This document shows positions 29,918-32,209 of a stretch of 64,000 nt of DNA, piece by piece. Source of the DNA: Ignavibacteria bacterium (GTDB lineage: Bacteria > Bacteroidota > Ignavibacteria > Kapaibacteriales > UBA4661); contig CANHDJ010000009.1 in assembly GCA_947459425.1 (NCBI GenBank), positions 1 to 64,000 of the forward strand, read 5' to 3'. The notes below the pieces were generated by a model. The model made no database searches. It was not told the origin of the DNA and saw only the letters and a program-made list of their open reading frames with translations. The first letter of the stretch is position 1. Each line of letters opens with the position of its first letter. The position numbers and the translations under genes are program-made.

Positions 29918-30580
29918 TTATGCTGTTGGCGTAGGCTCGGTGCTGCGCTCCATGATTTTATCAATCATGCCGTAATCCAAAGCCTCTTTTGAACTCATCC
30001 ATTTGTCGCGGTCGGCATCGGCTTTAATCTGCTCCATGGTCTTGTCGGTGTGATTGCCGATGATAGCATAGAGTTGGTCGCGCATCCGCACCATTTCTTT
30101 GGTGTAGATTTCGATATCCGAAAGCGTTCCTTGCGAACCACCGCTTGGCTGGTGCATCATTATGCGCGAGTGTGGAAGCGCATAGCGCTTACCTTTTGCA
30201 CCGGCGCACAAGAGAACTTGCGCCATCGAAGCCGCCATACCAACGCAGATTGTCGAAACATCAGGGCGAATAAACTGCATGGTATCGTAAATCGCCAAAC
30301 CGGAAGTTACGCTGCCACCCGGGGAATTGATGTAGAGCATAATGTCTTTGGATGGGTCTTCACTTGCCAAAAAGAGCAATTGCGCCACAATCAAGCCCGA
30401 TATGGTGTCGTCAATCGGCGTATTCAAAAGGATGATTCTGTCCTTCATCAAACGCGAGAAAATGTCGTAAGAACGCTCTCCACGCGAGGTCTGCTCGACC
30501 ACAATCGGTACTAGTTGGTTTTGCATCGGTGCGTTGATTGCCGATGGCAATACTACGTCATCAAACATCGTCGAAATCAT
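29918..30580 (-). CDS. clpP: ATP-dependent Clp protease proteolytic subunit ClpP
   Basis: A 220-residue serine protease that forms the tetradecameric chamber of ClpXP. The catalytic triad is S118 (GMAASMAQ), H143 (MMHQPSGG) and D192 (DRDKW). The oxyanion motif SPGGSV is at 86-91. The start at 30580 (MISTMFDD) has an AAGGAT ribosome site about 7 bases upstream; MFDDVVLP, 12 bases later, is the alternative. The N-terminal extension before the axial loop is some 20 residues longer than in E. coli, probably a propeptide. A MITE-like element lies between this gene and tig upstream. Confidence 0.97.
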
Positions 30581-30736
30581 AATCGTAATCCTTAAAAATG
30601 AAGAAAACGTATCGTGAGTATTACGAACATACAAATCTGTGTCGCAACACACAAGAGACTTTTTCTTCTATTGTCGCTTTTGTTGGCAAATTATTGGAAA
30701 TGCCGTGTCAGATTGTCTTTCAAGCGTGTTTTTATG

Positions 30737-30895
30737 TTCACTACCGTACATATTTTTCGTTTGTTTTTGACCGCAGAGGCGCGGAGTGAAGCCATTTTTA
30801 TTAAAGCATCCAAATTTGTATTGGGAAAATTTTATCGTTTCTTCTCTGCGCCTCCGCGCCTCTGCGGTCATCAAAAAAATGTGTACGGTAGTGAA
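30737..30895. mobile_element. 159-bp MITE-like inverted-repeat element
   Basis: Its ends are inverted: both begin TTCACTACCGTACA, then T or C, then ATTTTT. Further in, both carry GACCGCAGAGGCGCGGAG. Arms are 30737-30786 and 30852-30895 around a 65-bp AT-rich centre. It is flanked exactly by the 8-bp direct repeat TTTTTATG at 30729-30736 and 30896-30903, a probable target-site duplication. It encodes no protein. The right duplication overlaps the tig stop codon. The stem could also form a hairpin that ends tig transcription. Confidence 0.8.
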
Positions 30896-30898
30896 TTT

Positions 30899-32209
30899 TT
30901 ATGCCAACTCTTCGACTGCTTCTGCGGCTTTGGGGTCGAAATCTTTTTCGGTAATAATTGCGTAACCACGTAGAACTTCCATCACTTTTTCGTGCATGAG
31001 TCGTCCTTGAAGATTTTCATCGGCGGCGATTGCCGAGCGCAAATACTCGAAATTTGCTTCGCCCATATTCAACGATGCCGCTAACTCTTCGACGTGGTTA
31101 TCAATATCCGCGTCCGTCACCTCAATCTTTTCCTCTTCAATAATCCGTTCACGAAGAATCATCCATTTTGCCGTGTTACGCGCAACAGGTGTACGGGCTT
31201 CAGCATAGCGACGCACGTCGAAGTTTTTCGGCAATTTTTTATCAGGAAGCTGCTCGACCTCGTCTTGCAACATCGAAGCCACAACTTGGCTTACAAGGCT
31301 TTGTGGTGGCTCAAAATCATGGGCATTCAGGATTTTTTGGACAATTTGGTCATTGAGCAAGGTGTCAATAGAGCGGTCACGAGCAATGCGAATCTGCTTT
31401 TCAAAGTCTTGGCGTAATTCCTCCGTCGAAGTAATTTGACCACCCGTCAAGGTTTCGACAAATTCATTCGTAAACTCCGGCACTACCACGCGCTTAATTT
31501 CCTGTACAGATGCTTGCATCGGTGTTCCAAGTCCGCCGCCATTTTCTTGATTTGCCGGAACAGCATAACGGAAGGTGTCGCCAACTTTCAAATTCAAAAG
31601 CGATGTTTTCAATTCTGAGCCGACAGGTTCATTTTTCAGGAAGACGCGAATTTCTTCGGACTTTGCACCGATAAGCGTCATGCCCGTTGCGGCATCAATC
31701 GGATTCAGGCGAACCGTTACAAAGTACATTTCGTCGGTAATCTGCTCTGCCTCTTCAAGTTGAGCCTGCTTCAGTTGAATATTTTCAACTTCGCGGTCAA
31801 TATCTTCATCGGTAACGGGATAGACCAATTTTTCGATTTCGAGACCGCGATAGTTTTGCAACTCAAATTCCGGCAATACTTCATAAACAATCGTAAAACC
31901 TAAGCTGCCGTCGGCATTACGCTGCACGTCGCGCAACTGAGGCTGCCCAACGGGGTGCAGATCATTCTCCTCCACAGCCGATTGAAACATTGCACTCGCA
32001 ATATCCTCTGCTGCATTGGCTTCGATAGCTTTGCCATAGTTTTTCTTGATGAGATGAATCGGCACTTTGCCCTTGCGAAAGCCTTGCATCTGAATTTCAG
32101 GCTGTGCTTCGCGGTATGCCTTTTCGTAATGGGGTTCGAGTTCTGCTGCTGACATCGTGATTTTAAGTTCACGTTTGCAGCCGTCGAGTGTGAGAATTTG
32201 CGTTTCCAA
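30899..32209 (-). CDS. tig: Trigger factor
   Basis: A 436-residue ribosome-associated chaperone. The N-terminal ribosome-binding domain (1-110) holds the signature GFRKGKVP at 43-50. The middle (about 150-245) aligns to the FKBP-type prolyl isomerase domain but is weakly conserved and may be inactive, as in other Bacteroidota. The C-terminal helical arm domain fills the rest. It is the first gene of the tig-clpP-clpX series. The stop codon lies within the target duplication of a MITE-like element, so the last codons could have been altered by the insertion; the protein end (EAVEELA) looks normal. Confidence 0.95.
   Translation of the reverse strand: METQILTLDGCKRELKITMSAAELEPHYEKAYREAQPEIQMQGFRKGKVPIHLIKKNYGKAIEANAAEDIASAMFQSAVEENDLHPVGQPQLRDVQRNADGSLGFTIVYEVLPEFELQNYRGLEIEKLVYPVTDEDIDREVENIQLKQAQLEEAEQITDEMYFVTVRLNPIDAATGMTLIGAKSEEIRVFLKNEPVGSELKTSLLNLKVGDTFRYAVPANQENGGGLGTPMQASVQEIKRVVVPEFTNEFVETLTGGQITSTEELRQDFEKQIRIARDRSIDTLLNDQIVQKILNAHDFEPPQSLVSQVVASMLQDEVEQLPDKKLPKNFDVRRYAEARTPVARNTAKWMILRERIIEEEKIEVTDADIDNHVEELAASLNMGEANFEYLRSAIAADENLQGRLMHEKVMEVLRGYAIITEKDFDPKAAEAVEELA

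Follow-up and report, generated by a model that had tools for sequence, protein, structure and literature searches.

The tig–clpP gap and its element

The window, by which we mean the whole stretch of 64,000 nucleotides analysed here, comes from a draft genome of 3.4 Mb in 93 contigs (87% complete). On its minus strand lie the genes for trigger factor (tig) and ClpP, and a short repeat-rich element sits in the gap between them. Re-reading the sequence bears out how the initial annotation had described this element: 159 bp with inverted outer ends and an inner inverted block, abutted on either side by an 8-bp direct repeat. The features are as follows.

29918..30580, minus strand: clpP, with its start assumed at an ATG within a longer frame (29918-30652)
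30618..30675, minus strand: intact block ahead of clpP, conserved among five genomes; probable promoter or operator region
30729..30736, plus strand: TTTTTATG, first copy of the target-site duplication; the relative G002 has just one such copy at its empty site
30737..30895, no strand: MITE body, 159 bp, no gene assigned; multicopy; an exact alignment gap against G002
30737..30750, plus strand: terminal inverted repeat TTCACTACCGTACA; same 14-mer in other copies
30769..30786, plus strand: inner GC-rich arm GACCGCAGAGGCGCGGAG, which lacks one 8-bp unit found in most copies
30844..30869, minus strand: inner GC-rich arm at full length, GACCGCAGAGGCGCGGAGGCGCAGAG on the minus strand
30882..30895, minus strand: terminal inverted repeat TTCACTACCGTACA, 14 bp, perfect
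30896..30903, plus strand: TTTTTATG, second copy of the target-site duplication; the minus-strand TAA that ends tig falls within it
30899..32209, minus strand: tig (trigger factor) frame; start codon uncertain, name from the initial annotation and by eye

The outer arms (30737-30757 and 30875-30895) are 95% complementary and the inner arms (30760-30786 and 30852-30878) 89%. That the inner arms are unequal is due to an 8-bp unit, GCGCAGAG, which is missing from one of them and present in most other copies of the element. Units of this type have also gone from one arm in two other copies (on contig C31 and the second of two on C47), and in all three, including 30769-30786 in the window, slippage is probably responsible. 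Within the window the 14-mer end occurs without mismatch at two sites, both at the element, while three further matches have three mismatches each and are at chance level; the inner 18-mer, allowing up to three mismatches, likewise matches only twice, both times inside the element, where 0.06 matches would be expected. As had been proposed, the insertion lies at the end of tig and duplicated its stop codon: the TAA is contained in the duplicated CATAAAAA (equivalent to TTTTTATG), and the end of the Tig protein is the same as in the empty-site relative G002, that is, unaltered by the insertion. With terminal inverted repeats, a length of 159 bp and no transposase gene, the element has the build of a MITE.

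An empty site in a close relative

ClpP was found in 10 of the 10 family genomes searched. In one of them, the same-genus genome G002, ClpP is 100% identical to that of the window, and tig directly adjoins the region upstream of clpP, with one lone CATAAAAA at the junction. The alignment between the two loci (96.9% in one flank of 1185 bp and 96.8% in the other, of 2317 bp) is interrupted solely by the 159 bp, with an 8-bp overlap of the kind that a target duplication gives. G002 is therefore the relative with an empty site and a lone repeat that the initial annotation had suggested looking for, and conservation of the element at this position was not seen: viewed by eye, the tig–clpP gap is without it in all eight relatives compared (G001 to G007 and G009; G008 was left out of this comparison). 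As a side observation, the gap in G004 (L379) holds a different inverted repeat, of the GGCAGACAAGAGTGTCTGC type. Given the empty site in G002 and the absence of the element from the other gaps viewed, the alignments would most simply place the insertion after divergence from G002.

Further copies and their target duplications

BLAST identified seven complete copies in the draft, one each on C9 (the window), C6, C83, C31 and C93 and two on C47, along with five partial copies (C26, C44, C73, C15, C69), all of which end at contig ends. Contigs evidently break at the element, which suggests that there are more copies than were assembled. Both flanks can be read at six of the complete copies, and at five of these the target duplication is exact: 8 bp on C9 (TTTTTATG) and C93 (CAAAAATT), and 9 bp on C6 (ATTTTTGGT), C31 (AAATACATC) and in the first C47 copy (AAACTCAGG). 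In the remaining one, the diverged second C47 copy, the duplication matches at 7 of 8 bases. The C83 copy is left out of this count; its contig starts two bases before the element. The duplications thus belong to one size class, 8-9 bp, and the anticipated further copies with the same ends and 8-bp duplications of their own do exist, the length being 8 or 9. The loops are of about three types among the copies in the draft.

Of 60 relatives, only four (G005, G007, G009 and G025) gave BLAST matches at E of 0.001 or below, and these span arm regions, never the whole element. Neither the window element in the collections of plasmid and phage records nor one Rhodocyclaceae hairpin in the plasmid records had a BLAST match, searches in which the low-complexity filter may hide some matches. 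We also noted, in the source genome, lone arms with adjoining TTTCTTCT and without TTCACT ends (C2:85481-85521 and C50:15126-15166), which could be halves of elements or else a form in which the arm stands alone.

Closely similar ends on an IS4-family element in a congener

In the congener G001, a relaxed pattern of the element's ends matched 12 times forward and 11 times in reverse, compared to none in either direction for the control. All but one of these 23 matches are TTCAGTACCGTACA (the remaining one adjoins an unrelated reading frame), and those for which the extent of the contig was seen are no more than a few hundred bases away from where the contig stops; the IS is thus multicopy in G001, and similar IS ends are also present in G009. 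The MITE and the G001 IS ends are equal at 17-18 of the first 20 bases, from which we infer that an IS4 enzyme was the mover. One of the G001 end types encloses a C-terminal transposase piece, a fragment of 118 aa. This piece matches the IS4 family model NF033591 (E 2.4e-22) with 79.5 bits, below a cut-off of 152 bits that is meant for the whole protein and not for a fragment, scores above the cut-off against DDE_Tnp_1 (E 1.2e-7) and, by eye, contains Y-x2-R-x3-E-x6-K, which we take to be the IS4 signature. A 67-aa N-terminal open piece inside the other end type has no family match. Since the G001 IS is split across contigs, the two end types are putatively those of one element. No inner arms were seen within the ends of this IS. 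The MITE, then, shares its ends with an element that encodes an IS4 DDE transposase.

As regards a transposase gene with matching ends, which the initial annotation had proposed to look for, nearly the same ends are present in the congener, though the source draft (87% complete) yielded no autonomous element with these ends. The only IS4 relatives in the draft are two distant ones (40% identity) with CTWTGTACACGACAAAA ends, one of them with an in-frame stop, so that the partner there is missing, unassembled or lost; these relatives were rejected as mobilisers because their ends differ. Of the sites in the draft that match the end with two mismatches, six were inspected, and none of these six resembles the end of a transposon. 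Those on C5 and C21 fall inside ordinary reading frames; the four on C1, C58, C30 and C63 were judged by sequence only.

Two further observations concern other elements. A different IS4 group is represented by L335 in G004 and L337 in G009, with CTWTGTACACGACAAAA ends (CTAAG... in G009) and 9-bp duplications (GGTACAGAC and AAAATTTAT); remnants of the group with CTWTGTACACGACAAAA ends occur in the source genome (L332 and L333, on C25 and C78), the C78 remnant with an in-frame stop and the C25 remnant with no duplication. In G001, L310 (contig C495) is an open frame with a weak HTH match that starts just inside a TTCAGTACCGTACACC end preceded by TA, and is possibly an unrelated transposon with similar ends.

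RNA fold and clpP

The minus-strand RNA of 30729-30903 folds at -72.1 kcal/mol, as against -29.9 kcal/mol for shuffled sequences (z -11.4). The initial annotation had proposed that this hairpin may now set clpP expression. We found nothing to support this: the fold is stable, but no terminator-like site was reported at the element, and the block at 30618-30675 stands intact between element and clpP. Five genomes of the genus, four of which are without the element, have this block in nearly identical form; it probably holds the clpP promoter, although the sigma-70 scan gave a single promoter-like site, at chance level. (On the minus strand the block reads GAAAAAGTCTCTTGTGTGTTGCGACACAGATTTGTATGTTCGTAATA, with a dyad-like TGTGTTGCGACACA.) With a conserved block and probable promoter left intact, the insertion may affect clpP, but nothing found points that way. 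For the window stretch, Rfam returned six matches, all far below the gathering score, and five of these are plant or animal hairpins of microRNA type.

The inner arms in other elements of the family

The inner arm reads ACCGCNGAG-N-CGCNGAG and is also found in elements with other ends. Across the 10 family genomes, motif ACCGCNGAGNCGCNGAG is present in the source genome (11/13), G009 (12/13), G005 (1/0) and G007 (1/1); it gave no match in the other six, and all controls were 0. G009, which belongs to the same family, has these arms within elements whose ends are unrelated and whose duplications measure 3 or 10 bp. One type, alpha, is a second MITE family with the same GC arms (copies L107, L111, L114, L116, L118, L120, L437 and L442). 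Its ends are GAASTTGTTT or close to it, and six of the eight two-ended copies have an exact 3-bp duplication (ATT, AGA, ATT, TAT, AAT and TAT, the last two by eye); L111 and L442 do not. No autonomous partner with these ends was apparent among 17 places. In the other type, beta, the ends are close to TTYAGTACCGAACG; the duplications are 10 bp long in L104, L106 and L314, and L315 has one of this length with two extra bases; the beta-like L105, L109, L110 and L113 show no clear duplication.

Paired arms across phyla and in phages

A scan of a collection of species genomes for paired arms returned at least 119 stretches. At least 80 loci, several of them from the same genome, can be listed, and these fall into at least 13 phylum-level groups, counted from record titles under a grouping of our own. 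The loci listed amount to at least 29 in Pseudomonadota (beta, gamma or unspecified), 17 in Acidobacteriota, 7 in Bacteroidota (two of them Kapaibacterium, which NCBI taxonomy places in Bacteroidota, Kapaibacteriaceae), 5 each in Planctomycetota, Goldiibacteriota/FCPU426 and Chloroflexota, 4 in Deltaproteobacteria and relatives, 2 each in Verrucomicrobiota and Auribacterota, and 1 each in Nitrospirae, Armatimonadota, Cyanobacteria and Elusimicrobia. The initial annotation was right in likening the inner block to a GC-rich repeat found between genes in several phyla. Three named strains among the loci listed (two Bowmanella and Thiohalocapsa marina) argue against a binning artefact.

In eight genomes, chosen for already having matches, the motif was counted at 46/43, 120/104, 60/58, 47/53, 55/48, 79/77, 30/23 and 0/2, which corresponds to between 2 and 224 arms per genome and at least 53 in seven of them; the reversed motif gave no match, save one in a single genome. 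A sample of Bacteroidota indicates that the distribution is patchy, with a match in 26 of 247 genomes (the source included), three or more in only 10, and a control match in 2 of 247.

Sixteen stretches of viral contigs match the arm motif as well. Two of these contigs, L414 and L417, overlap (99.97% identity over 6218 bp) and carry two hairpins, one of which lies in L417 between a protease-like gene and the gene for the major head protein; the other, 2.8 kb from it, precedes a head-tail adaptor gene. A third viral contig (L421), 96% identical over 889 bp, carries one of these hairpins. In the literature searched we found no description of the arm motif; an earlier one is possible in subscription papers or preprints, which were outside the search.

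Hairpins in other genomes

We read 82 foreign hairpins, that is, 164 arm ends. Their arms are CGCNGAG arrays, often with TTC ahead of them (among the 164 ends, position -3 is T in 119, position -2 is T in 125 and position -1 is C in 94), and the sequence immediately outside looks genome-specific; by eye, CGTC-like letters stand beside some of the hairpins in G061. Direct repeats of at least 8 bases within 60 nt occur at 8 of 87 hairpins, with 4.5 expected. Broken down by genome, we observe 1/19 against 0.4 in G061, 2/9 against 0.7 in G065/G067 (the longer of these two being conserved element sequence) and 1/6 against 0.0 in G009. This is no clear excess, so mobility outside the Kapaibacteria does not follow from it. 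The outer 20 nt are hardly inverted copies of each other (7.07 of 20, compared to 6.19 in mismatched pairs), and in G061, G065/G067 and G009 the inversion is lower than in mismatched pairs. Left and right arms are correlated at three of four positions (p 0.0068, 0.0008 and 0.0034; fourth position p 0.10), a covariation that is not clean evidence of pairing since the shuffles mix genomes.

Using a crude gene caller, we placed 60 of the 82 hairpins between two genes, dropping 17 inside called frames and 5 at edges. These 60 gaps comprise 21 convergent, 30 tandem and 9 divergent ones, compared to 15, 55 and 37 among hairpin-free gaps of at least 150 bp, so that hairpins are commoner in convergent gaps (Fisher p 0.003) and rarer in divergent ones (p 0.007). 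The median distance is 23 nt to a gene 3' end and 34.5 nt to a gene 5' end. Intrinsic termination was considered as the function of the hairpins and rejected, as six or more T within 10 nt are found at only 9 of 164 ends. At 17 foreign loci, Rfam gave no match at gathering score.

Discussion

The stretch 30737-30895 is confirmed as a recent MITE insertion with IS4-type ends, which is an ordinary kind. Its ends, the other copies, their duplications, the empty site and a congener's IS4-family element with nearly the same ends are all matters of observation, and the whole is very probably to be read as a MITE, presumably mobilised in trans by an IS4-family transposase, that inserted after tig with duplication of its target. 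Most likely, a DDE transposase of the IS4 family would have recognised the ends, 14-20 bp long (TTCACTACCGTACA[C/T]AT). The element would have moved from another site and been joined at a cut with its two strands staggered by 8 bp, immediately after the tig stop, and repair of the gaps would have produced both copies of TTTTTATG. A complete IS partner would be expected to have TTCA[C/G]TACCGTACA ends. Counting against this explanation are that the search of the source draft gave no autonomous copy with these ends, that its two IS4 relatives have other ends, that the 67-aa piece matches no family, that the G001 IS is fragmented, and that the duplication length is not constant among copies. Transposition can be explained without the inner (CGCNGAG)n arms, which form a module of their own; as a guess, they may have been retained because a hairpin in the transcript is tolerated, or even protective, right behind the end of a gene.

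Could the arms instead be what moves? The element might be REPIN-like, its GC arms travelling as a single-stranded hairpin by means of a Y1 (TnpA-REP/RAYT) transposase, with the outer ends incidental. Two inverted arms with a spacer, together with the lone arms, do recall REP doublets, and Y1_Tnp matches are present in six of nine arm-bearing genomes, the source genome included. However, Y1_Tnp was not found in the other three (G009, G063 and G062, the genome richest in arms at 120/104), and the strict arm motif occurs near none of the 30 Y1 loci examined (of 32 matches; flanks of up to 1.5 kb), so the arms lack the association with Y1 genes that is the mark of REPs and REPINs. The Kapaibacteria copies carry inverted ends and exact target duplications, neither of which Y1 transposition is known to make. 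We therefore disfavour Y1/RAYT mobilisation of the window element and consider it very improbable. A host origin, in which a terminator or an mRNA-stabilising stem is conserved between tig and clpP, might draw on the very stable fold and on the position of the foreign hairpins close behind gene 3' ends and in convergent gaps (21/60 as against 15/107 in hairpin-free gaps, with crude gene calls). If that were so, we would not expect a gap without the element in every relative viewed, a lack of any terminator-like site at the element or so few U-runs at foreign hairpin ends, and as an account of the element's origin this reading is refuted.

Separate from the reading as a MITE is the question of where the arms come from. 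It is conceivable, though on balance unlikely, that the shared arms arose by convergence, from a repetitive unit of 7-8 bp slipping into arrays, and are not one transferred module, which would be compatible with the reading as a MITE. The arms are indeed arrays of CGCNGAG units with variable spacing, and units were lost from the window copy and two others; but the same outer edge (often TTC-ACCGC) and the same unit recur in all those phylum-level groups, and the reversed motif is nearly absent. Part of the invariance among matches arises by construction, given that the motif itself was the search query. A tentative alternative, to which we give somewhat more credence without regarding it as probable, is that the (CGCNGAG)n arms are a mobile module in their own right, present across phyla and in some phages and captured repeatedly between unrelated transposon ends, which are of IS4 type where the duplications are 8-10 bp, of another type where these are 3 bp, and elsewhere specific to the genome. 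The arms might be retained because amplification, or tolerance, right behind gene ends is favoured by a conserved cell factor or by the hairpin itself.

IS4-family-derived MITEs are short gene-less elements with IS4-family terminal inverted repeats and 8-10 bp target duplications that occur in multiple copies, and the window element resembles them in all these respects. It differs in its inner arms, which are common to elements with unrelated ends, and in that its partner was not found in the same draft. Correia, ERIC/RU and similar sequences are small palindromic intergenic mobile sequences, and by description the window element is alike. It can also be likened, again by description, to the hupL MITE of Thiomargarita nelsonii, with 10-bp direct repeats, a 19-bp inverted repeat and a parent IS not identified in ISfinder, in a paper whose main text contains neither CAGAG nor CTCTG (PMC4853749). 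REP doublets and REPINs (GTAG- and CGTC-tagged) share inverted short GC-rich repeats, a variable spacer and, for REPs of other kinds, occurrence in many phyla, again with neither CAGAG nor CTCTG in the main text of the source (PMC3733652). What sets the present arms apart from REPINs is that they are unit arrays, with no arms near the Y1 loci examined, some arm-bearing genomes without a Y1_Tnp match and, in the Kapaibacteria, target duplications.

What we have, then, is a clean recent MITE insertion that lies beside a housekeeping operon and for which a close relative shows the empty site. The MITE itself is ordinary, and the shared arm module is the unexpected and interesting part: arm arrays are numerous in some genomes of very distant phyla and occur in phage structural gene clusters, with outer ends that vary both between and within genomes. 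If the captured-module reading were true, the arms would make up a pan-bacterial class of repeats, so far without a name, whose ends are exchangeable. Should they be one module, this would go against the usual view of a MITE as the deletion derivative of a single parent transposon, and would provide a directly testable system for what lets a short sequence spread among bacteria.
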